This document shows, piece by piece, positions 33,361 to 45,436 of a stretch of 64,000 bases of DNA; the first letter of the stretch is position 1, and every line of letters starts with the position of its first letter. The notes beneath the pieces were generated by a model, which saw nothing but the letters and a program-made list of their open reading frames with translations, was not told the DNA's origin and searched no databases. Source of the DNA: Prevotella sp. Its GTDB lineage: Bacteria; Bacteroidota; Bacteroidia; Bacteroidales; Bacteroidaceae. Location: NCBI GenBank assembly GCA_017471465.1, contig JAFUTI010000039.1, positions 1-64,000 of the forward strand, written 5' to 3'. The position numbers and the translations under genes are program-made.

Positions 33361-34122
33361 TCACCTTTTCACCTTTATCCTTCCTTCAACCTGGGCGTCG
33401 ACGGGCTCGCCACGAGCAGCCTTCTGCTTGAAGTAGTTCATGATGATAAAGCGTGTGTTGTTACGCGACTCCTGCGGTGAGTTCACATCGCGTCCCTCCT
33501 TGAAAGCGCTCATGCCGTCGTTGCCACCCAACAGGTAGTCGATGGTGGTCACGCGGTAGTCGGCCTGCGGGTCTATCTCTTGACCGTGGAGGCGGGCCGA
33601 CACCAGTTCACCGCTGGTGGTGATGACCAGTTCGCACCCCCGACTGACGCCTTCGCCGCCGCGGTGTGCTATCTGCCGGAACAGCTTCAGCAGTTGTTCG
33701 CCTGTCAGTGTCGTGAAGGCTATCTTGTTCTCAAACGGTGCAATGTCAAGCACATCGCCGTAGGTCACCTGCCCCTTCGTGAGCTCGGCGCGGATGCCAC
33801 CCATATTGTAGACGCCCAGCACCGGTTTCTCGCCGTATTCGTCAGCAGCCCAGACAAGGATGTCACTCAGCAAGTTCGACAGGTTACTCTCCGGACGCTC
33901 CACAGCCATATTACGCGCCACGACGCCCATAACAGGTCCCATAACGGAGTCCACCTTGTGCTTGAATGGTGACAGAAACCTGGCTGCCGCCTCATCCGGC
34001 TGACGGTCGTAGCGGCTGTCTATCACGATACGAGTCCGTTCCACGCTGGCCAACTGATAATGGGAGCGGCATGATGCCAGCAGCATCCCAACAGACAATA
34101 ATAACAGTAGTTTCTTATTCAT
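33361..34122 (-). CDS. 5'-nucleotidase C-terminal domain lipoprotein
   Basis: 253 residues, lipoprotein signal MNKKLLLLLSVGMLLASC (Cys-18). The 5_nucleotid_C domain fills the rest: RPESNLSNLLSDILVWAADE, VYNMGGIRAELTKGQVTYGDV, PFENKIAFTTLTGEQLLKLF, and DYLLGGNDGMSAFK, which provides the base-stacking region. No phosphoesterase metal site is present, so it needs the partner encoded just downstream. First gene of the pair, with a TATCTTTG box at 34150-34143. Confidence 0.88.
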   Translation of the reverse strand: MNKKLLLLLSVGMLLASCRSHYQLASVERTRIVIDSRYDRQPDEAAARFLSPFKHKVDSVMGPVMGVVARNMAVERPESNLSNLLSDILVWAADEYGEKPVLGVYNMGGIRAELTKGQVTYGDVLDIAPFENKIAFTTLTGEQLLKLFRQIAHRGGEGVSRGCELVITTSGELVSARLHGQEIDPQADYRVTTIDYLLGGNDGMSAFKEGRDVNSPQESRNNTRFIIMNYFKQKAARGEPVDAQVEGRIKVKR

Positions 34123-34251: not shown

Positions 34252-34669
34252 ATCCGCTTATCCTACACCCGCTACTGAGTATCAGACGCTTAGCACGAAA
34301 TTATCCGCTCATTATCCGCTAATTATCCTACACCACATCAGGAGACAATGGCTTAAGGTATACCGTCCGAAGGGCCTGGACAAAAAAATCTCAAAGCCCC
34401 AGACAAAAATCTCAAAGCCCCGGACAAAAATCTCAAAGCCCCAGACAAAAGTCCCAAAGCCCCAGACAAAAGTCCCAAAGCCCGGGACAAAAGTCCCAAA
34501 GCCCGGGACAAAAGTCCGAAGGGGGGCGGACTCCCACCAAACGACAGAAAGAGCGCAAATGACAACAAGCACACTCCGTTCCATTTGGTGACGGATAATT
34601 GGCGGATAATGAGCGGATAATTTCGCGCTAAGCGTCTGATACTCAGTAGCGGGTGTAGGATAAGCGGAT
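34252..34669. mobile_element. 418-bp MITE-like element with 77-bp inverted repeats
   Basis: Arms at 34252-34328 and 34593-34669 are inverted copies, 77 bases each with two mismatches by eye. Inside the arms the motif TTATCCGCT recurs. The core has seven 21-bp tandem repeats and no real gene. It lies between the divergent nucleotidase and rplS promoters. No clear target duplication was found (ATTACA-like bases flank the right arm, TTACAA the left). It could be a non-autonomous transposon or a large hairpin element. No transposase is in the window. Confidence 0.65.
34378..34519. repeat. 21-bp tandem repeats, about seven copies, each a small palindrome
   Basis: The consensus is RGACAAAARTCYCAAAGCCCS. 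Each unit contains a short dyad around AAAA (GGGAC with GTCCC in units 6-7, AGA with TCT in units 1-3), with changes on the two sides that partly keep pairing. Frames through it on the minus strand give repeated GFGTFV or LGLLSGA peptides that are artefacts of the repeat. Confidence 0.85.
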
Positions 34670-35250: not shown

Positions 35251-35265
35251 GCACGAAAAAAAAAT

Positions 35266-35295
35266 GAGGCTCACACGAAACACGTTGTGAGCCTC
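35266..35295. terminator. Bidirectional terminator between rplS and the 35309-45261 operon
   Basis: GAGGCTCACA and TGTGAGCCTC form a 10-bp stem. Nine A precede and eight T follow on the plus strand, so it works both ways. Confidence 0.93.
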
Positions 35296-35308
35296 TTTTT
35301 TTGTATTG

Positions 35309-35485
35309 TCATTTGTAGTTCTCATCGGCACTGGCGTCGCCGTGCAACGCATCCTGGAAGGAGTCCCAATCCTGGAACCCTGCCAGAAGCGACAGGTGAT
35401 CCAGGGTTTTACGGTCGGGTTTCTTCAGAAGCTCGTGTTCCACTGCCTGCAGCAGTTTCTTCAGAGCAGCACGTTTTCCTTCCAT
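35309..35485 (-). CDS. Small helical protein, 58 aa
   Basis: A short frame from ATG 35485 to TGA 35309 (MEGKRAALKKLLQAVEHELL, then KTLDHLSLLAGFQDWDSFQD). It is predicted helical: a basic amphipathic first helix and an acidic second half ending DENYK. It has no signal peptide, so it is cytosolic. It starts 5 bases after the previous small gene stops and is the last member of the long minus-strand gene run, ending just before the terminator. Family unknown to me; the regular codon use and tight packing support it. Confidence 0.65.
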   Translation of the reverse strand: MEGKRAALKKLLQAVEHELLKKPDRKTLDHLSLLAGFQDWDSFQDALHGDASADENYK

Positions 35486-35490
35486 ACGCT

Positions 35491-35673
35491 CTACTGGCCA
35501 AGTAACTTGTCGAAGCCAGACAACTCATCAAGCGTCTCATCAAACTCCGTGGCGTCGCCGGGACGTGAGCCGAGCTCACCCCCGTAGACATCGCTGGCGG
35601 TAAGCAGATGAGAGGCTATCATGATGGTCTCCACAGAGACATGCGGTGCTATATAATCTTGTCTTTTTTTCAT
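35491..35673 (-). CDS. Small peptide of the YxxPxVxV...LLxxS type, 60 aa
   Basis: The start is taken at ATG 35673 (MKKRQDYIAPHVSVETIMIA); another in-frame ATG at 35682 overlaps the stop of the preceding gene. The sequence has a basic start, a YIAPHVSVE segment, then SHLLTAS and an acidic C-terminal half (GDATEFDETLDELSGFDKLL). The same layout is seen at the N-terminus of the fimbrillin-like protein (HNYEQPSVKVV, QLLAGS, acidic). It is not a normal signal peptide. Function unknown; it could be a small secreted or regulatory peptide whose gene accompanies surface-protein genes. Confidence 0.7.
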   Translation of the reverse strand: MKKRQDYIAPHVSVETIMIASHLLTASDVYGGELGSRPGDATEFDETLDELSGFDKLLGQ

Positions 35674-35681
35674 AACGCGCA

Positions 35682-38006
35682 TTACTTGTTGATGATCTTC
35701 TTACCATTGTGAATGTAGAGACCGGGCTGGACGGGAGCACCCTGCAGGCGTGAGCCGCTGATGGTGTACCACCCGTCGGCGGTCGGTGCAGCACCTACGC
35801 TGACGATACCCGTCGGCTGGTCGTCGCCGAAGGAGACGGCCAGACGAGAGCCTGCGTAGCTGACCAGCAGATAAGCACGGTAGGGCTTGATGGTGGCTCC
35901 GGCACCCACCTGCACGAACTCACCGGCATCGACGCCGTCCTGAGCCGTAGCAGCATAGCCGAAGTAGTATTTACCACTGGCTTTGGCTTCGTCGATCATC
36001 TCACTGGTGAAGGTCAGAGGCTTGTAAGTGCCTATCAGCTGTGAAGCCACAGGACCGCCGGTCTTCTTCACCGTGACGTTCTTGACCGACACTTGTCCGG
36101 CAGCCGTCTTACGGAAGATATACGGTGTGTTAGCCACCAGTCCGTCAGTAACTTCCTCCAACACAGCCTCGCCGTTTGTTATACCCGCGAAGGTGTAGAA
36201 CGTACCCAGGGCAGCGGCAGCGGCCTTGTCGAGGTCGAAAGGCAGGTAGACGGTCGACGTCTGACCGGCAACGAAGTCGCGACCCAGCGTGGTATTGACG
36301 GCACCGAAGTTCAGGGATGGTGCAAACTGCTGGTCGTCCTCTGTGAGCTGCATGTCGTTGCAGACGCCACCGATGATGACATTCTTTTCTGTTCCGGCAT
36401 CATTGCCGGCAGGCAGATAGATAAACGTTTTGGAGTCAACACCGTTGAAGGGTCCACTGCTACGGCTAACGGTAATACCAGTAATCGACGTCTTGGTCAG
36501 GTCGATGCTCTTCAGGTCTTTGCCGCTGAAGACGTTATCGGCCAGCGTCGTGATGGTCTCATCGTCAAGCGCAAACGCGCCTTCGGTGACGTTTTCATCC
36601 TTCACCTCCGTCAGCGGTTTCTCGGGCACAGCCTCAATCTCAGGCGGCGCCGCTTCAGCGACCACCTCGGGAGCCACCGAGACAGAGAACATACGGACAG
36701 GTGCCGTCTTGATCTTGGCACGGAAGCCACGAGCCATTGCCGGTGTAGCATTATAGATGTAGACGTATGTGGCCTCGGTCAGCACGTAAGGTACGGTAAC
36801 CTTGCCGGTAACGTTCGTGAACGACACAGGCTCAGCATCGCCAATCTTCACATTCAGCACAGCGCCTGCATCGACTTCCACGTCGAGCACGATGACACCT
36901 GCACCGGCTGCCAGCTTGAAGGTGACACCCTCGAAGGCCTTGGCGAAATCTGCCGTACCAGGCTCCTCGTTCATGGCAGTGGTAATGCCTGCTTCATCCA
37001 CAGCGGTGTTCAGCACGATAGCCGTCTTTTCGTCTTTCGTGACGAGCACGTCGACCGCATTACCAGCTTCATCCTGCACCTCGACGGTGTAGAGCACTTC
37101 GTCTACCACCTTATTAATAATAATAGTCTTATCCGTCTCAGGATTGGCTGTCTCAACCTTTTCTGACTCATCTACCTTGGCGGGGTTCAAGTCATCTGCC
37201 TTAGGCTGATCAACGGTCTTCTCCTCAGTAATTGGTTTGATATAGACGCCGATAAGCGCATTGGCGGCCGTAGCATCACCGCTGCGCCATACCAGGCCCT
37301 CTAGCTCCACTTCCGTAAAGTTGCTGATGACCGGTGAGGTTCCAGTCGACTGCAGCGTCAGCATACCTGGGTTGTTGGGGTCTGTTGTGATGAAGAGTTT
37401 CTCGCCACTGCCCGTCGTCGTCACCGACTGCAGCTTGTTGTTCACACCTTTGATGTAGATTGTCAGGTCCTGTCCCAGTGAACTCGACACAGTGACAGAA
37501 CCGTCACCATCATTCTGGTTCAGGATCAGCACACCCTTACCGTTGTAGGCCAAGGTAGAGTCGGCGTCGGCCGTTCCCAGGATATCCAGCATATTGTCGC
37601 CCGTTACGGCAATGCCGTTCACCGTCAGAGAGAACGCGCGATAGTCGAAGTCGACCGTCACCTCCACGTCGCAGGCCTCGGCCGGCATCGCGAACGTGTA
37701 GACATCATTGCCCTGCGCTGTCACCTCAATAGGCTGGCTCATGCCAGGCGCCTTCTTACGACTCTGCGCATTACCAGCATCGATGACTTTCACGGCCGTC
37801 ACCTCTTTTATTTTATATGGCGTGCTGATGTCCGTTACGGTCAGCGTACACGTCCCGTTGTTGATTTCCGGCACGATGCTCTGCGCACACATAGCCGGTT
37901 CACCGTTCAGCTGTTGTATGATGTTCACCGTCCCGGCAGCTCCTGCCTCGGAAACCCACAGCAGCAGTGCGACGGCAGCAAATATATTTCTTGTCAGTCT
38001 GTTCAT
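35682..38006 (-). CDS. Secreted surface protein with C-terminal sorting tail
   Basis: 774 residues; signal peptide (ends SEAGA-AGT). N-terminal InlB-type beta-repeat-like region (25-110), a domain LTVNGIAVTGDNMLDILGTA shared with the next upstream protein (about 115-230), and an acidic linker (260-300). Two beta-rich stretches follow, then a 500-540 region with LADNVFSGKDLKSIDLTKTS resembling an LRR_5 unit. The C-terminus (WYTISGSRLQGAPVQPGLYI, then HNGKKIINK) is of the type IX tail kind. Function unknown; probably a surface-exposed binding protein. It follows the 1148-aa gene by 12 bases. Confidence 0.72.
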   Translation of the reverse strand: MNRLTRNIFAAVALLLWVSEAGAAGTVNIIQQLNGEPAMCAQSIVPEINNGTCTLTVTDISTPYKIKEVTAVKVIDAGNAQSRKKAPGMSQPIEVTAQGNDVYTFAMPAEACDVEVTVDFDYRAFSLTVNGIAVTGDNMLDILGTADADSTLAYNGKGVLILNQNDGDGSVTVSSSLGQDLTIYIKGVNNKLQSVTTTGSGEKLFITTDPNNPGMLTLQSTGTSPVISNFTEVELEGLVWRSGDATAANALIGVYIKPITEEKTVDQPKADDLNPAKVDESEKVETANPETDKTIIINKVVDEVLYTVEVQDEAGNAVDVLVTKDEKTAIVLNTAVDEAGITTAMNEEPGTADFAKAFEGVTFKLAAGAGVIVLDVEVDAGAVLNVKIGDAEPVSFTNVTGKVTVPYVLTEATYVYIYNATPAMARGFRAKIKTAPVRMFSVSVAPEVVAEAAPPEIEAVPEKPLTEVKDENVTEGAFALDDETITTLADNVFSGKDLKSIDLTKTSITGITVSRSSGPFNGVDSKTFIYLPAGNDAGTEKNVIIGGVCNDMQLTEDDQQFAPSLNFGAVNTTLGRDFVAGQTSTVYLPFDLDKAAAAALGTFYTFAGITNGEAVLEEVTDGLVANTPYIFRKTAAGQVSVKNVTVKKTGGPVASQLIGTYKPLTFTSEMIDEAKASGKYYFGYAATAQDGVDAGEFVQVGAGATIKPYRAYLLVSYAGSRLAVSFGDDQPTGIVSVGAAPTADGWYTISGSRLQGAPVQPGLYIHNGKKIINK

Positions 38007-38018
38007 ATCACATTTGCT

Positions 38019-41000
38019 TTATTTGATGAATACTTTTTTGCCGTCGACAATGTTCAGGCCCCTACGGGGACTGCCCATGCGCTGGCCTTGCAGGTTGTAG
38101 ACCGCCTTATTCATTGTCTCTTTATTCATTAGTGTAGCGCTAATGCCGGTAGCGTCGCCGACGACTATCGACAGCGAGCGTGCGCCTAGGGCGGCGACAG
38201 CGCCTGACACTACCAGATAGCCGCGACCGGCGGGGATGGTGCCGGCGGTGGTCTTCACGAATTCGCCGTTGTAGAGCACGTAGACCGTACCGTCGATACC
38301 GCTGACGTCAGTAGCCGATGACGTGCCAATCAGAAGCGAGTTAATGCCCGTCATGTTATTCACAACATTTTCTGGCACCGTTGTGCTCTGCTCTAACAGC
38401 ACAGGCGTATCCTGCGGTACATAGCTGATGGCCTGCACAAAGACCGTCGTTTCATTGACATCGGTCACCACATACGCATTGACGCCTTCTGGCAAATCCA
38501 TTCTTTCCTCAGCGTTATAATATGTGGCCCATGTCTGGCCCTGTGCGAATTCAACGTTGAGTGTAGGATAAACGACGGTGAACTCGCGCGTCACGGTCTT
38601 CGTACCGCCCCAAGTGTCACCAGTGCCTGTTATGGTGATGACGTATGTGCCAACCTCAACTATAGCATCAACATCCTCCAAATGAGTGCTGGCACTCTTC
38701 TGGTAGCTGACGGTGTAGTTGCTTGCAGGAATCTCCTCCATGGTCTTTTCTGAATCATATACCGTGAACGCCGGTACGATGGCCTCGCCAGTATACGTCG
38801 CCGTTGTCGTGAACTCAGGAATATAGGCCTCGCTAATGTTCGACTTCACGGTGAACACCTGCGACACCCGCTCGCTGTAGACGGCATCGTCGGCAGTTGT
38901 TCCATTATATCTCACCCAGGCATACAGTGTACCTGTGCCTGCTGTCAGCGTTACCTTCGAATTGTCGCTGTATGTGGTGCCGTTACCGTCCTGGCAGTCC
39001 TCCACCCAACTATACATGATAACAGCATTCTCGTCCTCGGCCAGCGTCTCCGGCAGCGTGATGCTCACCACGTCGGTGTTCAAGTATTCTTTCGTCTCGT
39101 CGAAGACGATGGTGGGAGCAGGGGGCACAACCTCAAAGTTCATCGTAAAGTAGTTGTTCAGTATCGTCGTCTTGCCCTCGGAGGCACTCATGGCTACTGG
39201 TCCACCAAAACTTCCTAGAGTCGATGACGAGATTTTCCCTGTTTCTGAATTATAGGTAACATTAGCCTCGATGCCATTAATACTGATACCATCGTCCTCC
39301 TCAATAGCCGGTGCCAATACGAGGTCTACGGGGTCGGCGCCATAAACCAGCCTGAACGGGCTTGGATTAGAACCAAAGAGCTTTGCCTTGTTACTGCCAA
39401 TGATGTTGCCGTTCATTTTAGCATATGCAGTGATTGTGCAAGGACCAGCTAAACCTGAGATATTTAAAGTTGCACCAGAAAAATTGTGGTTCGTTTCATC
39501 GAGAGGCAAGTCTACCTCAACGCCATTGCCTTCAATTGTCGTGTCAACATAATCAATCTTATAATGATATGTAGCATTTAACAAAAGACCATTTCCAGCA
39601 GTCCAATTGTTGACTCCATCACTTATATAAAATACAGGCGCTTCGCCAGTGATTGTCTTTACATACTTAGTGCCCGCTAGATTGAATAATCCCAAATCAT
39701 CTTCGAAATTCACTTTAGTGAATCCGTCACAGAAGCCTATATAATCTCCTACAGAATATTCAGAATTTGAACTAAGATTGCCTGTGCCTTTAATTGTCAG
39801 CTCCCCTGTAGAACTATTATTCTTAAAGTTATATGTGGCATAACTACCATTGAAATATGTATTATTATTTCCCACCAGTTCCACCGTCAAATCGCCGTTG
39901 CAGACAATAAGAGGTATCGTCTTGCTCGTAGATAAGGAAGCATTATTCAGCGTCAAGACACCATCATTGTATGTTACTGTACCAGTAATACCTGTGCCCG
40001 TAATCTCTCCTCCTGTTGACATGTTACCAGCAACCCATATTGCATTTGAAGGCGTGATAGAGAAGGTTACATGGGCAATTTCTCCACCATAATAGGATTG
40101 CATCGTGCCTCCCTCACCATCATAATGCTCATAGTGTACATCTATACTTGCACCTTGGCCATTTTGAGCAGAAAGATACAAGTCATTGTCCCATGTGCAA
40201 CTTGTAAAACCTTCAACATTAGTTACTGTAAGACTAGCAGATTCCGCACTACTTGCCTTGTTAATTTGGATGTTAGAGGACTGATAGTTGGAACCATTAT
40301 ACGTGATATTTCCATATATCGTGTTTGTACCACTGATTTCTATGGTTAAATCATCTACTAACACTTGGATGTCGGTACTTGTTCCTGCTCCTTGTTCGCC
40401 TATCGTAGCATCAGTTAACGTAAGAGTATTGGAAGTTGCATCGAAATGTGCAGTGCCTTCTCCAAATGTAACATTTCCCGTTTCGCTGAAAGAAGTATCC
40501 CCTATCTTGACATAAGTGCCAGTAGTGGAAATGGTTTCCTGATAAGGCTTGTCAGCGTCATAAAAAGCCCTAAGTCCGTTTTCACAAGCAATACTGGGAA
40601 CGACTTCACCATTACATGTGGCCATCTGACCATCAGTTAATTGAAAAGAACCAGGAGTCTGACCTGTAGTGAAAGTCAGCGTAGCATCGTTACTGACGAA
40701 ATAAAAACCATTACCCATAATAATGGCATTAGTTCCAATGAGGTTTACTATCAAATCATCCACCTCTTGTCCAATATAGAATGCAGGACCTCCATCTGTT
40801 GTAGTACACTCGAAGCTTGTTAAAGTCAATGTGCTTCCATTATAGTTTGCAGTACCACTAGTTCCATTAACCGAAGGAGCGTCAGCAGTTAATTGGGTAT
40901 ATCCAGTATGTTCATCACCAGTGTAAACCCAAACTGGATATGTTTCATTAGTACTGATAGTTATACTGGTCACAGCATTACCATCAGCCGCCCTTAATGA

Positions 41001-41465
41001 ACCATCATCACAATAAGGAGCAGGTGAATAAGAAGCCAGATAAAGGCCACTGGCAAGTTCATATGAGTCAACATGATTGAATACGCCTTCATCATTGGTT
41101 ATTCCTAACGAACCCTCTCCTGTAAACGACAGCGATGTGTATTCTTGTCCGTTAGTAATACAACCATTCAGCGTATTTGATTCCACCAAATTGATTGTCA
41201 GGTTTTCTAATGTAGTAGAGATATCACCGTTAATCGTAGCATTAGTAAGCGTCAGCGTGTTCGTTGTTGCATCGAAGACAACGGTTGGTGTCTCTTGATT
41301 GCCCAACACGTTCAACGCATTGGCATCTGTCACCTGCGTTTCACCTATCCACAGGTCATAATTTTCTGCCCACACTCCTATCGGCAGGAGCAATAACGCA
41401 AGCAACAAGGAAAGCTTTCTCAGCTTTCTTGTAAGGTTCGATTGATGAACTAATCGTTCTTTCAT
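38019..41465 (-). CDS. Large secreted beta-repeat protein with C-terminal sorting tail
   Basis: 1148 residues with a signal peptide (core LLLALLLLPIGVWA). From residue 35 to about 600 it has repeated units of the form LWIGETQVTDANALNVLG, TPTVVFDATTNTLTLTNATI, LTIxLxGxNxI, GxGSL, read as a beta-helix or solenoid. Ig-like segments follow near 650-1000, including a YTGEAIVPAFTVYDSEKTM MBG-type unit. It ends VYNLQGQRMGSPRRGLNIVD with GKKVFIK. The 5' two thirds of the gene (39,230-41,465) are visibly AT-richer than the 3' third, as if modules of different origin were joined. It starts 29 bases after the HATPase gene. Ligand unknown. Confidence 0.75.
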   Translation of the reverse strand: MKERLVHQSNLTRKLRKLSLLLALLLLPIGVWAENYDLWIGETQVTDANALNVLGNQETPTVVFDATTNTLTLTNATINGDISTTLENLTINLVESNTLNGCITNGQEYTSLSFTGEGSLGITNDEGVFNHVDSYELASGLYLASYSPAPYCDDGSLRAADGNAVTSITISTNETYPVWVYTGDEHTGYTQLTADAPSVNGTSGTANYNGSTLTLTSFECTTTDGGPAFYIGQEVDDLIVNLIGTNAIIMGNGFYFVSNDATLTFTTGQTPGSFQLTDGQMATCNGEVVPSIACENGLRAFYDADKPYQETISTTGTYVKIGDTSFSETGNVTFGEGTAHFDATSNTLTLTDATIGEQGAGTSTDIQVLVDDLTIEISGTNTIYGNITYNGSNYQSSNIQINKASSAESASLTVTNVEGFTSCTWDNDLYLSAQNGQGASIDVHYEHYDGEGGTMQSYYGGEIAHVTFSITPSNAIWVAGNMSTGGEITGTGITGTVTYNDGVLTLNNASLSTSKTIPLIVCNGDLTVELVGNNNTYFNGSYATYNFKNNSSTGELTIKGTGNLSSNSEYSVGDYIGFCDGFTKVNFEDDLGLFNLAGTKYVKTITGEAPVFYISDGVNNWTAGNGLLLNATYHYKIDYVDTTIEGNGVEVDLPLDETNHNFSGATLNISGLAGPCTITAYAKMNGNIIGSNKAKLFGSNPSPFRLVYGADPVDLVLAPAIEEDDGISINGIEANVTYNSETGKISSSTLGSFGGPVAMSASEGKTTILNNYFTMNFEVVPPAPTIVFDETKEYLNTDVVSITLPETLAEDENAVIMYSWVEDCQDGNGTTYSDNSKVTLTAGTGTLYAWVRYNGTTADDAVYSERVSQVFTVKSNISEAYIPEFTTTATYTGEAIVPAFTVYDSEKTMEEIPASNYTVSYQKSASTHLEDVDAIVEVGTYVITITGTGDTWGGTKTVTREFTVVYPTLNVEFAQGQTWATYYNAEERMDLPEGVNAYVVTDVNETTVFVQAISYVPQDTPVLLEQSTTVPENVVNNMTGINSLLIGTSSATDVSGIDGTVYVLYNGEFVKTTAGTIPAGRGYLVVSGAVAALGARSLSIVVGDATGISATLMNKETMNKAVYNLQGQRMGSPRRGLNIVDGKKVFIK

Positions 41466-41494
41466 AATGGTTAAAGTTTATGATTGTACTTTTC

Positions 41495-42403
41495 TTATTT
41501 CGCTAACGGAAGCGTAAACACGAAACGGGCACCGGGACCGGCATAGGTCGTGTCGAGAACGACGTCGCCACCCAGGCGGCGGGCAATGGAACGGGCTACA
41601 GAGAGACCGACACCGTTGCCGTCGAAATAGCTGTTCAGCTTGACATAGGGTTCAAAAATATGCTCGGCCTCTTCTGCCGGCACACCCATACCCGTATCCT
41701 CGACAGCGAAACGGACATTGCCGTCAGCCTGATCAACAAAGAGAGTCACCTTACCTTCGGTGGTGAACTTCGCAGCATTCTCCAACAGCAGGGCAATGAC
41801 ACGCGAAGCCTTGGCGGGAGTGGTGTGGAACTCAGCCTCGTTGGCATCGTCAGCCACCATGATACCAAACTGCACATACTTGGCGTTGAGAATACCCGAC
41901 TGTGCTACAGCCTCATCGGCAATCTGACGGGGAACACCGCGCTTGCCAACGTTGATGGGAGCCAGAGAGCCCAGTTCCGACAAGTCCTGCAACTTGCGGA
42001 CAATGGACAACAGCTTAGCGCTGCTTTCGGGCTTGCCTGCCTCATCCTCTGCCTGCTGTGCCAGCTGACCGATGATGTCGTAGTTCTGCTGGGCAGCCTG
42101 GAAGGCCCCTTTCATCTTCTGGACCTCTTGTTCCAGCTGACCGCTAGTGGCGAGCATCTTCTGCTTCTCCTCCTCCATCTTGTCGAAGGCCAGCAGCGCC
42201 TGTTCGTAGCCCTCGCCGACATTGTCGAAGTTCTTCTCCAGCGCACGATAGTCGTCCAGCAGTTTCTGCTGCTCGTCCACGCGCTTCTGATAGTCACTCA
42301 ACAGGTTGTTCGTCTCATCGGTTTTCTTGTTCGACGATTTGATTTCGTACAGTAGTGCAACGAAAAGCACCACGATGACCAGGATTAATATACCGTACCA
42401 CAT
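41495..42403 (-). CDS. Membrane-anchored HATPase (GHKL) protein without obvious phosphoacceptor His
   Basis: 302 residues: an N-terminal helix (MWYGILILVIVVLFVALLY), a long coiled coil (22-115, ending near LEQEVQKMKGAFQAAQQNY), then an ATPase core. N-box LLLENAAKFT, G1 EDTGMGVP and G2 GNGVGLSVA are intact. In the position of the dimerisation helix (SIVRKLQDLSELGSLAPI) no H-E/D-x-P motif is present. It could be a kinase of Ser/Thr targets, a histidine kinase with an atypical DHp, or an ATPase regulator. It lies 6 bases after the STAS gene, so it probably acts within that signalling module. Confidence 0.75.
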   Translation of the reverse strand: MWYGILILVIVVLFVALLYEIKSSNKKTDETNNLLSDYQKRVDEQQKLLDDYRALEKNFDNVGEGYEQALLAFDKMEEEKQKMLATSGQLEQEVQKMKGAFQAAQQNYDIIGQLAQQAEDEAGKPESSAKLLSIVRKLQDLSELGSLAPINVGKRGVPRQIADEAVAQSGILNAKYVQFGIMVADDANEAEFHTTPAKASRVIALLLENAAKFTTEGKVTLFVDQADGNVRFAVEDTGMGVPAEEAEHIFEPYVKLNSYFDGNGVGLSVARSIARRLGGDVVLDTTYAGPGARFVFTLPLAK

Positions 42404-42409
42404 AAGCTG

Positions 42410-42721
42410 TTACTCCTTCTTCTTCTCTACGGTCATAAACTTTGTGAAGCCTGTCATCTGCAGCACCTTGTAGATCTCTGCATTAACGTTTGTAATCTTA
42501 AACTGTCCCTTCTGCTGCATCACCGTGCGCATCGTCTTCTGAATAACACGAAGTCCGGAGCTGGCCATATAGACCAAATCAGAGCAGTCAAGTTCCAGGT
42601 CCAGGCCACCGTCGACCAAGACGGGCTGGATATCCTTTTCAAACTCACCCGCATTCATCGTGTCAATACGTTCACCTGTCTTAATGATGGTCTTACCACC
42701 TTCTTTCACAATCTTTGTCAT
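42410..42721 (-). CDS. STAS-domain anti-sigma-factor-antagonist-like protein
   Basis: 103 residues, single STAS domain. The conserved phosphorylation-site loop reads DLVYMASSGLRVIQ, with Ser-54 or Ser-55 as the likely target. The N-terminal IIKTGERIDTMNAGEFE and C-terminal FKITNVNAEIYKVLQMTGF segments are typical of SpoIIAA/RsbV relatives. In partner switching the dephosphorylated form binds the kinase and frees the latter's client. Its neighbours supply the kinase (42747-43154) and the phosphatase (43138-45261). Confidence 0.9.
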   Translation of the reverse strand: MTKIVKEGGKTIIKTGERIDTMNAGEFEKDIQPVLVDGGLDLELDCSDLVYMASSGLRVIQKTMRTVMQQKGQFKITNVNAEIYKVLQMTGFTKFMTVEKKKE

Positions 42722-42746
42722 AATGCATTATTTTTATTATTAGTTA

Positions 42747-43154
42747 CTAAATTTCTTTCTTCATCGTCAGCAGGTTCTTACCGTCCAGTCGCTGATAGGT
42801 CACCTTGTTCATGATATTCTTCACAATCAAGATGCCCATACCGCCAATCTCCCTGTCGATGGGGTTCACGTCAATATCGGCATCCTCCTTAAGGGTAGGA
42901 TCAAACTCGCGGCCTTGGTCGCTCAGCACGAAGGTCAGCTCCTTGCCTGAGCTCTCCACCATCAGTCCTATCTCGGCATCAGTTCCCTCAGGGTAAGCAT
43001 AGAAGATGACGTTCGACACCATCTCCTCCATCACCAGGTTCAGGTTCATCTGCAACTCCATACTGAGTCCCAGCTCCTCACTGATTTCCTCGATGAACGT
43101 GGCGACACGCTCCAGTTCGCCGACCTGATTTTTCAGTTTAATCTCCTTTTTCAT
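42747..43154 (-). CDS. RsbW-like serine kinase (HATPase_c_2 anti-sigma family)
   Basis: 135 residues. The N-box (LVMEEMVSNVIFYAYP; Glu-44 and Asn-48) and the following DQGREFDP and REIGGMGILIVKNI motifs define the RsbW/SpoIIAB-type GHKL kinase. It should phosphorylate the STAS protein encoded next. In Firmicutes such kinases sequester sigma-B or sigma-F; Bacteroidetes lack these, so the client protein is unknown. Its start overlaps the last 17 bases of the phosphatase gene, so the two are translationally coupled. Confidence 0.9.
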   Translation of the reverse strand: MKKEIKLKNQVGELERVATFIEEISEELGLSMELQMNLNLVMEEMVSNVIFYAYPEGTDAEIGLMVESSGKELTFVLSDQGREFDPTLKEDADIDVNPIDREIGGMGILIVKNIMNKVTYQRLDGKNLLTMKKEI

Positions 43155-45261
43155 CGTTTTTAGTATCTATTGTTTTTTTCGTTACCTTAAAGCACAGCAT
43201 CGTCAGGTCATCGTTGGGTTCGGCACCGTCGCGATGCTTCTCTACCTCCTCGCGCAGCATCTCCACCGTCTGTTGTGCATTCTCGAACGGACGTGTCTCG
43301 AGCAGCTCAAGCAGACGCTCGTCAGTAAACTGCTGCTGCTGGCGGTTCTCTGCCTCATTCAATCCGTCGGTATAGATAAACAGCGGCTGGTCCCTGACAC
43401 AGTCAATCTCTTCACCCTCATACTCCAGACCGGGCCACAGCCCGATAGGGGCATTGGGAATCATCTCAAGGAACCGGCAGCCGTCGTCGGCCAACAGCAC
43501 CGGCGGGTTATGTCCGGCATTACAGAAGCAGAGATGACCGTTAGTCAGGTCCACGAAGCCCAGGAACATGGTCACGAACATACCCTGTTCATTATCGGCT
43601 CCTAGCTCATCGTTCAGACGTGTGGCAATCTCGGCCGGCTGCATCTTCAGCTTGGCCAGCGTGTGGAACAGACGGGTGGCCTGAGCCATAAAGAGCGACG
43701 CGGGAACGCCCTTGCCGCTGACATCGCCTAAGCAGAAATACAGATAGTCGTCAAGGAGGAGGAAGTCGTAAAGGTCGCCGCCAACAGCCTTCGCCGGCGT
43801 CATCGAAGCATAGATGTCAAGGTCGGGACGGCTGGGGAACACACTGGGCACCATCGACATCTGGATGTCACGGGCAATACGCAGGTCGCTCTCTATACGC
43901 TCCTTGGCTGCGGTCGTCTCCTCCAGATTGTCGTAAGCCACCAGCAAGTCGTTATGGGTCTTCTCCAGTTTGTCGTGAGCCACCTTCAGCCGCTTGGCCG
44001 CCTTGATGCGGAACACCAGGAAGATGGCAAGTGCCAAAAGGACGACCGAAACCACCACGATGGTGAATGTGAACTGTGCACGCTCCTTCTCCATCTCTAT
44101 CTCGTTGACATGGAACAGCGTGTTCATCTCGCTCAGTTGGTTCTTGATGTCACTGGCATTGATGGAGTCGTTGATGACATACATCTCACGATACAGGCGG
44201 GCGGCCTCAGCATACAGTCCAAGCTTCTCGAGAATCTCTGCACGCTGCTGACGCACCATGATGAGCACCGACTTGTCGTCAGTTTCCTCCATCTGCTGCA
44301 TACGCCGTTTGTTCAAGGCCAGCGCCTCGATGTATTTGCCTTGTTTGAAACTCAGCTGGGCACGGTAGAACAGGTATTTCTGGCCGATGTAGTCGTCTTC
44401 CGAGACAAGGCGCTGGTGAACTTCGTCTAATGCCTCGGCAGCCTCGGAGAGTTCCTCCTTACCCAGAAAAGCCTGGGCTCGGGCCAGGTAGTAGTAAGAC
44501 CAATAGGTGGTCACCTGATAGCCGTCTTCCGACAGCTCTCCCTCACGCGATTTCAAGAAACGCTTCAGGAATCCGCTCCACTCGTCGGTCAGCCGTTCCA
44601 GCTTGTCATAGCTGTGCTGGTCGTTCAGCACGTCGGCATAGTTGGGATACACCTCAGTAATGACGGCTGGCAACAAGTCCATTTTCAATAGAATGTCAAG
44701 TCCCTTACGGTAGGCATCCACACACTCATCGAGACTGCCAAGCACCATATAGGCATTTCCCATGCCGATATAGGCCAGTCCCATGCCATAGTTATCGTGA
44801 AGCTGGGTAGCCTCCTCAAACATCGAATGTACTTCACGTAGTCCGATGTTTGCCTGGCCTGAGTAAATATAAGTGTTGCCCAAGTAGGCCCACATCTCGA
44901 AATAGCCTTTCCATATCTTGTGACGCTTCAGGAACCCCAAATCCTCTGGAACATGAGCATAGATGGAGTCGTTCATGTCGTTATTATAGAAGAAAGACGT
45001 CCTACACAGATAGACAAATCCCTCGTGGGCGACCTCATGCTGACGGCGTGCCTCACCCAACCAATCATAAAGCGCCTTCATCTGCTGATCTGTGTCATCA
45101 GTCATCAGGCTCAGGTTGTAAAGCCGCTCGTAGGCTGCCAGCCTCACCGTGTCCTGCAACTGGGGCAGTTTTTTGCGCAATTCAGCAGCCTCGTCAGCGA
45201 AGGCGCTGACGACTCCTACCAAAAGGGAAACGACGACCAAGGCCAGCTTTCTACTCATCAT
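43138..45261 (-). CDS. SpoIIE/RsbU-type PP2C phosphatase with periplasmic TPR sensor
   Basis: 707 residues: a signal peptide or first helix (LALVVVSLLVGVVSAFA), a TPR-like periplasmic domain (25-370), a membrane helix (about 393-415), a coiled coil (420-470), then the PP2C-like domain. Catalytic segments are AVGGDLYDFLLLDD, FCLGDVSGKGVPASLFMAQ, FCNAGHNPPVLL, IYTDGLNEAEN and PNDDLTMLCF, so the metal-binding Asp set is intact. It would dephosphorylate the STAS protein in response to an envelope signal sensed by the TPR part. First gene of the run, with a TATCTTTG box at 45308-45301. Confidence 0.9.
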   Translation of the reverse strand: MMSRKLALVVVSLLVGVVSAFADEAAELRKKLPQLQDTVRLAAYERLYNLSLMTDDTDQQMKALYDWLGEARRQHEVAHEGFVYLCRTSFFYNNDMNDSIYAHVPEDLGFLKRHKIWKGYFEMWAYLGNTYIYSGQANIGLREVHSMFEEATQLHDNYGMGLAYIGMGNAYMVLGSLDECVDAYRKGLDILLKMDLLPAVITEVYPNYADVLNDQHSYDKLERLTDEWSGFLKRFLKSREGELSEDGYQVTTYWSYYYLARAQAFLGKEELSEAAEALDEVHQRLVSEDDYIGQKYLFYRAQLSFKQGKYIEALALNKRRMQQMEETDDKSVLIMVRQQRAEILEKLGLYAEAARLYREMYVINDSINASDIKNQLSEMNTLFHVNEIEMEKERAQFTFTIVVVSVVLLALAIFLVFRIKAAKRLKVAHDKLEKTHNDLLVAYDNLEETTAAKERIESDLRIARDIQMSMVPSVFPSRPDLDIYASMTPAKAVGGDLYDFLLLDDYLYFCLGDVSGKGVPASLFMAQATRLFHTLAKLKMQPAEIATRLNDELGADNEQGMFVTMFLGFVDLTNGHLCFCNAGHNPPVLLADDGCRFLEMIPNAPIGLWPGLEYEGEEIDCVRDQPLFIYTDGLNEAENRQQQQFTDERLLELLETRPFENAQQTVEMLREEVEKHRDGAEPNDDLTMLCFKVTKKTIDTKNDEKGD

Positions 45262-45300
45262 TTTTGGAAAAAGAGTGTAGTTTTATCACTTTTTAGGCCA

Positions 45301-45308
45301 CAAAGATA
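45301..45308 (-). promoter_or_regulatory. Promoter -7 box of the phosphatase-led operon
   Basis: TATCTTTG then TGG, 40 bases before the ATG at 45261. A second promoter for the surface genes was not seen in the short gaps downstream. Confidence 0.55.
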
Positions 45309-45402
45309 CAAATATTTCTTCAAACAGCCATCATAATTCGAAATATTTTACGCTTTAGCCTAATTATTTATCTGCGAAAGCCCGATTCTCAATTATTTTC
45401 AC

Positions 45403-45410
45403 TATCTTTG
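45403..45410 (+). promoter_or_regulatory. Promoter -7 box of the AICAR transformylase gene
   Basis: TATCTTTG then CACC, 27 bases before the ATG at 45437. The 175-base divergent region 45262-45436 otherwise shows nothing. Confidence 0.6.
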
Positions 45411-45436
45411 CACCCTGCAACAAAATATTTTCAAGA

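Follow-up and report, generated by a model that had tools for sequence, protein, structure and literature searches.

Partner switching is best known for the release of sigma factors, as in the RsbU-RsbW-RsbV-SigB and SpoIIE-SpoIIAB-SpoIIAA-SigF (Rsb/SpoIIA) circuits of B. subtilis. Non-canonical forms also exist, with SypE, BtrU, SiaA/B/C/D and HsbR/HsbA as examples. In the locus described here, from Prevotella sp. (assembly GCA_017471465.1, contig JAFUTI010000039.1), the genes of a putative partner switch run directly into genes for large secreted surface proteins. It occupies positions 35309-45261 of the 64,000 nucleotides analysed, a stretch called the window below, which forms contig C23 in a draft genome of 2.4 Mb (63% complete). 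As judged from sequence, this is a Prevotella partner-switching cassette, present at several chromosomal sites, with a variable slot for secreted surface proteins. Other non-canonical cases, SypA of Vibrio and BtrV/BtrW of the Bordetella type III secretion system, are treated in excerpts of PMC8256260. In Bacteroidetes, rsbRSTX stressosomes, a different module, have been reported (excerpts of PMC9237108).

The likeness to Rsb/SpoIIA lies in a PPM phosphatase, a GHKL serine kinase and a STAS protein with a phospho-serine position, and extends to profile matches to the structures 6m36 and 1th8. The locus differs from these systems in having no sigma gene in the operon, a membrane-anchored pseudo-histidine-kinase as fourth component and surface-protein genes after the module. 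The features are as follows.

45262..45436, no strand: divergent gap to purH, which keeps the -7 element TATCTTTG
43138..45261, minus strand: SpoIIE-type (PPM) phosphatase, 707 amino acids (aa), with signal peptide, predicted periplasmic TPR region, one transmembrane segment (TM), coil and phosphatase domain
42747..43154, minus strand: RsbW-type serine kinase, 135 aa, PF13581
42410..42721, minus strand: STAS-only protein, 103 aa, PF01740, predicted phospho-acceptor Ser54
41495..42403, minus strand: fourth component, 302 aa, with TM anchor, conserved coil, His-less former phospho-acceptor (DHp) region and HATPase_c
38019..41465, minus strand: surface protein A (surfA), secreted, 1148 aa, C-terminal tail
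35682..38006, minus strand: surface protein B (surfB), secreted, 774 aa, C-terminal tail
35491..35682, minus strand: 63-aa protein, last gene of the cassette
35309..35494, minus strand: 61-aa protein, an old neighbour of purH and rplS that now lies downstream of the cassette, outside the system
35257..35300, no strand: hairpin resembling a terminator, with T-runs on either strand; rplS shares it

All eight minus-strand open reading frames (ORFs) of the initial annotation were found at 35309-45261, packed as tightly as it reported (gaps of -17, 25, 6, 29, 12, -1 and 5 bases, with an ATG start for the last gene). Its domain calls (SpoIIE plus TPR, RsbW-like kinase, STAS, HATPase_c) hold in Pfam. 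The bidirectional terminator that it placed at the end is also there, as a hairpin between the last gene and the convergent rplS (-22.8 kcal/mol, z -4.9 on the minus strand). It had noted the absence of a sigma factor, and indeed none occurs among the proteins of the window scanned with Pfam and NCBIfam; the operon carries no sigma gene of the kind that marks SigB- and SigF-type systems.

Module and surface genes across Prevotella loci

STAS orthologues (E 1e-30 or better) occur in 106 of 398 genomes of the genus and in 33 of the 175 more complete ones. A family-wide draw gave matches at 1e-20 in 11 of 301 genomes: the window's own, one of the same genus and nine of other genera (9e-50 to 1e-20). 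In an order-wide draw of 295 genomes, which contained at least three others of the same family, the sole match at 1e-20 was the window's own. The best 80 of 169 STAS relatives in named genomes are all titled Prevotella, Prevotellaceae or Bacteroidales, and many are from ruminant gut. The 118 STAS places lie on 117 contigs, from each of which a stretch was read; with L049, where the fourth gene is present and STAS is missing, the survey set comes to 118 loci. L051 (no STAS match on the contig) and L052 and L053 (SpoIIE paralogues of the window's own genome) were not counted. A simple script that takes the longest ORF served to call the genes.

A surface gene lies in the same-strand run behind the module in 45 of the 118 loci, recognised by its tail in 36 and by homology in 9; any tail-bearing or homologous gene within the first four of the run was counted. 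Compared by gene order, the check that the initial annotation had proposed, the junction between the fourth gene and surfA (41465-41495) recurs in relatives. As a control, immediate same-strand neighbours at most 1000 bases apart were taken from the same loci, and a tail was found in 6 of 423 such pairs. Where the module is followed by a complete same-strand gene, the run holds a tail in 36 of 75 loci (p 1e-27 against the control), 31 of these tails lying within the control's limit of 1000 bases. Among the 719 other genes in these loci with 250 aa or more, 9 match the tail profile, which derives from the surface proteins. The link between module and surface genes is not a matter of local chance.

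The surface genes occur in five named settings and in others: the module stands behind dapA or an AraC-like gene (16 loci), behind tig/clp with an ABC gene (6), between purH and rplS or beside rplS (3 of 3), behind fba (4 of 5), behind tsf (2) and elsewhere (14). The dapA site gave no match in the window's own draft, at its 63% completeness. On a tree of RsbW and STAS, which is quick, unrooted and has many open forks, the surface trait switches 20 times or more and the setting 15 times or more. That the cassette recurs at different chromosome sites ahead of fast-changing surface genes suggests a coupling of these genes with an envelope signal.

It could be argued that abundant tail-bearing genes are simply tolerated where they land behind the cassette, with no coupling at all. 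Such genes are common, the surfA query finding 32 matches in the window's own draft (itself counted), and their sequences differ strongly between loci. This explanation is unlikely, and the least probable of those considered here. It has to contend with the excess over the control, with the variety of settings in which the module is the constant, and with the finding that phosphatase and surface genes, on opposite sides of the core, are missing together.

The phosphatase gene lies upstream, and the surface genes downstream, of a core made of RsbW, STAS and the fourth gene; the exceptions are L095, L097, L098 and L100, of the tig/clp setting, where the phosphatase gene is downstream of the fourth gene. 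Where the phosphatase is present, 42 of 64 loci have surface genes; where it is absent, 2 of 27 do (42 and 22 against 2 and 25; Fisher p 1.7e-7, kinship uncorrected). For all scoreable loci the counts are 42 of 67 versus 2 of 37 (p 4.8e-9, again without correction for kinship). Both tables leave out, from the 118 loci, 8 without a readable downstream side and 6 without a readable upstream side. The direction is the same in each setting that has both classes, fba and tsf contributing one phosphatase-less locus each. The core itself persists in loci that lack both phosphatase and surface genes. On an unrooted tree, "lost" and "never gained" look alike.

We lean towards an envelope-sensing partner switch that would be coupled to the linked surface proteins. 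With the first 899 aa of surfA as query, 12 of 150 genomes of the genus give a match, and 9 of the 12 (the window's included) fall among the 33 genomes with the module (p 6e-5). Several observations weigh on the other side. In 4 of these 9 genomes the match adjoins the module, and in the other 5 a different contig carries it. Of the 110 loci whose downstream side could be read, 65 have no surface gene scored behind the module. When supported branches only are used, the joint absence reduces to about 4.2 independent concordant pairs, with none discordant (median p 0.125). Finally, in L118 and L125, which have surface genes, no fourth gene separates these from STAS; therefore the fourth gene is neither indispensable nor the sole client of the switch.

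The main rival assumes that the surface proteins are the input. The TPR sensor-phosphatase would monitor their export or assembly, while RsbW, STAS and the fourth protein would report elsewhere. This is possible, though rather improbable in our estimate. It would explain why loci that lack the sensor-phosphatase also lack the surface genes, with the other three genes persisting without both, and it fits the predicted periplasmic location of the sensor. However, an output gene would also go with the loss of the phosphatase, and in the window the surface genes appear to be co-transcribed behind the module, which is the usual order for outputs.

Components of the cassette

The phosphatase scores 166.1 bits against PF07228 (cut-off 25) and 33.5 bits against TPR_2, and matches the PPM structures 3ke6 and 3eq2. 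Its signal peptide and TM were read off the sequence by eye, and the periplasmic placement of the TPR region is a prediction. The draft genome holds three SpoIIE domains. In L052 (G000:C28:1-5765), which belongs to the same genome, a second SpoIIE protein has genes for a HATPase protein and a permease-like protein behind it, and no RsbW or STAS match of the module kind was found there. This second SpoIIE protein may feed the STAS protein of the module. A scan of six proteins with PADLOC, made for a defence system, gave nothing beyond a weak TPR match, and this candidate was dropped.

The RsbW-type kinase (PF13581, HATPase_c_2, 76.9 bits) is the sole PF13581 match above cut-off in the 63% complete draft. 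Its profile matches B. subtilis RsbW (6m36, E 3.8e-6), and it scores under the NCBIfam equivalog cut-offs for RsbW and SpoIIAB. The STAS protein reaches 57.8 bits against PF01740 and passes the cut-off of TIGR00377. Its Ser54, unchanged in 17 of 17 aligned sequences, aligns with the first serine in the DS(S/T)G motif shared by RsbV and SpoIIAA, the residue that is phosphorylated in those two proteins. Across 16 aligned relatives each, identity to the window is 73-93% for RsbW and 73-98% for STAS. A related RsbW-STAS pair lies directly ahead of an exporter operon with three shared genes in nine loci (L138-L142, L144-L146 and L149), so that a kinase pair of this type adjoins export machinery for a second time. 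The first ABC protein of L142, the locus chosen for testing, passes TIGR03796, NHLP bacteriocin export (887.9 vs 853.3 bits), and the second ABC protein and a short HlyD-like protein stay under cut-off on the NHLP models.

The fourth protein matches PF02518 (HATPase_c) with 73.6 bits. Its N, G1 and G2 boxes are present, with N209, D236, G238, G240, G262, G264 and G266 invariant in 28 window-type sequences. Across 28 such sequences the coil (residues 34-78) is the best-kept part, with 23 of 45 positions invariant; the HATPase domain is moderately conserved (38 of 138), and the former DHp region has none of 86. The predicted structure (pLDDT 86.7) consists of one long helix that reaches residue 122, another helix and the fold of the ATPase. 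By pattern-based checks, which also served for the signal peptides below, histidine-kinase-like orthologues keep the H-box in 24 of 24 cases and have an N-terminal TM in 0 of 24, whereas the window-type pseudokinases have the H-box in 0 of 61 and the TM in 61 of 61. In a third class, of "short" forms, 12 of 14 consist of a TM and a coil, L115 and L127 being atypical. The fourth gene appears to be derived from a histidine kinase and, in some lineages, cut down to a membrane-coil stub, the His-less form probably being the derived one. Since the coil is common to all forms, it is the nearest candidate contact for RsbW, STAS or the phosphatase.

The surface proteins vary much more. First surface genes encode 399 to 2944 aa, and their last 230 residues align badly. 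Even in the close relative L034, with a STAS protein 98% identical, surfA aligns over 97 residues only and surfB is 47% identical. Homologues of surfB lie behind the module in L034, L044, L046, L047 and L091. A signal-like N-terminus was seen in 45 of 45 first surface genes, surfA included, with a crude pattern. Tandem clusters of the surface-A/surface-B type also occur away from the module in module-bearing genomes (L234, L235 and L236).

The initial annotation spoke of sorting tails. The recurrent C-terminal motif is real: surfA scores 45.5 bits against the tail hidden Markov model (HMM), and surfB exceeds its threshold of 18 bits. Its equation with a signal of the type IX secretion system (T9SS) was not supported. 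The Pfam and NCBIfam libraries hold models of T9SS tails, and surfA and surfB match no family in them at E 0.05. For the last 230 aa of surfA, a beta domain with a separate short tail is predicted, and this model has no close match in the PDB (best E 0.44). The tail measures about 30 residues; the PorU-processed T9SS domains of P. gingivalis have 67-88 (excerpts of PMC11285876). With neither a curated family nor a close PDB match, the candidate of a known T9SS domain was set aside. Among six relatives of the surface proteins searched against Pfam, one was matched (L042: MBG_2, Big_2). The genome does encode the T9SS protein SprA (SprA_N, 712.4 bits), the sole T9SS part searched for. The tails may serve as sorting signals.

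Pfam gave no match for the two large proteins or for the 63-aa protein. The latter has homologues at the equivalent position in L034, L091 and L154. Small proteins of a "K..Y.xP" type with variable ends follow the surface genes in few loci: besides 35491-35682 itself, a strict pattern picks out L044, L047 and L058 (3 of 45).

Promoters, genomic site and proposed output

Of the 45 junctions ahead of a surface gene, 18 are at most 100 bases long and none of these contains the promoter motif. The 27 wider ones yield 17 motif matches in 14 loci, against 0.67 expected from single-base shuffles. In the window, the 29-base gap between the fourth gene and surfA carries no promoter motif; the fourth gene itself contains one -7-like element, 166 bases ahead of the end of the gene. 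The initial annotation would have given up the connection if the surface genes had separate promoters and the junction were unconserved. Promoters do seem to be present in relatives (14 of 27 wide gaps), and the junction recurs.

A promoter private to the surface genes (TTGGnnRTTTC..TAnnTTTG) was considered and rejected: 16 of 119 control promoters share the pattern, which makes it general to the genus. It fits 9 of 13 surface promoters (p 3.5e-5 against the controls). The match of the surface promoters with a genus-general pattern argues against a dedicated sigma factor, and points to ordinary promoters for the surface genes.

This bears on the proposal of a classical anti-sigma circuit, in which RsbW would hold an extracytoplasmic-function (ECF) or other sigma factor, encoded elsewhere, that reads the surface genes. 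RsbW and STAS are the usual anti-sigma pair, and the draft contains 11 ORFs with sigma-70 region 2 of 169-204 aa, which is ECF size. However, the surface promoters of relatives and the gap before the window operon carry the general TAnnTTTG element, and no sigma ORF of group-3 size was found, in a list that is incomplete (no primary-sigma-sized ORF either; genome 63% complete). Such a circuit is distinctly improbable. It overlaps with the envelope-sensing switch favoured here, and the probabilities behind our wording do not sum to one.

The 61-aa gene gives a clue to how the cassette reached its place. Matches to it were found in 75 of 150 genomes of the genus. In 15 of 30 fetched loci it adjoins the divergent purH without any cassette, at a distance of 66-225 bases, and in 12 of these 15 rplS lies on its other side. 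All 15 undisturbed loci have a TAnnTTTG element ahead of it. In the window the -7 element TATCTTTG is on the purH side, starting 47 nt before the ATG of the phosphatase gene, and the 9.8 kb cassette separates it from the small gene; no -33 TTG was found in this gap at the spacing tested. L091 keeps the order purH, cassette, small gene and rplS, with TAACTTTG in the equivalent gap. Since the element is kept on the purH side and the neighbourhood is intact elsewhere, the cassette presumably arrived, or took shape, as one block that parts a promoter from its gene. Transcription of the small gene would now require read-through or a promoter not recognised here.

The 61-aa gene, for which a scan of NCBIfam, the only library used for it, gave no match, was thus rejected as a part of the system. 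The initial annotation had made it the eighth member of one unit. That module and surface genes belong together survives, by their linkage, the control and the joint absence, once this gene is taken out. Beyond the hairpin, short GC-rich tandem units of the GTCCCGGGCTTTGGGAC type lie at 34434-34509, between rplS and the gene at 33361-34122, with repeated terminator-like matches.

The envelope-sensing switch would work as follows. The TPR sensor would detect the state of the envelope, and the phosphatase would dephosphorylate the STAS protein at Ser54. The dephosphorylated STAS protein would bind RsbW, and RsbW would release another client, for which the coil of the membrane-anchored pseudo-histidine-kinase is the nearest candidate. 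The linked surface proteins would be the output, through their expression or display. In the window their genes would be reached by read-through from the purH-side promoter, and in many relatives from promoters of their own. A bolder, tentative version, which we consider improbable, has the coil of the fourth protein, and not a transcription factor, as the client of RsbW, the fourth protein being a histidine kinase that would have lost its phospho-acceptor and acquired a TM anchor; a switch at the inner membrane would then decide on the making or export of the adjacent, fast-changing surface proteins, and the whole would be a mobile "signal plus surface coat" cassette.

Relation to described systems

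Among the matches listed in a search of open-licence full-text literature, no title concerned partner switching with surface genes of Bacteroidota. The words "bacteroid" and "prevotella" were not found in PMC8256260, nor "bacteroid" in PMC11418112, and in excerpts of PMC7807042 "partner-switching" appears solely in the title of a reference. In the present case many Prevotella link partner switching with secreted surface proteins that are polymorphic, and a degenerate histidine kinase is a frequent fourth part of the module. If the proposed coupling is true, common gut and rumen bacteria would have a route to match their surface to an envelope signal. The natural series of histidine kinase, pseudokinase and coil stub would then show how a component of a two-component system took on a new form next to a partner switch.

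Like T9SS substrates, the surface proteins combine a signal peptide with a conserved C-terminal tail in a genome that encodes SprA. Unlike them, they have a tail of about 30 residues that lacks a curated family match and a fold match to solved structures. The stressosome (rsbRSTX) shares with the module its STAS, GHKL kinase and PP2C genes, as far as excerpts of the literature on it describe. The Prevotella module differs in its single STAS gene and in its phosphatase, a TPR membrane protein, and scans with Pfam and NCBIfam gave no rsbR/rsbS/rsbT-like set in the window. SypA and BtrV/BtrW belong to another phylum and work with other further components, the partners of SypA being given as unknown in excerpts of PMC8256260. 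With the Prevotella cassette they have in common that partner switching is tied to surface or secretion traits.

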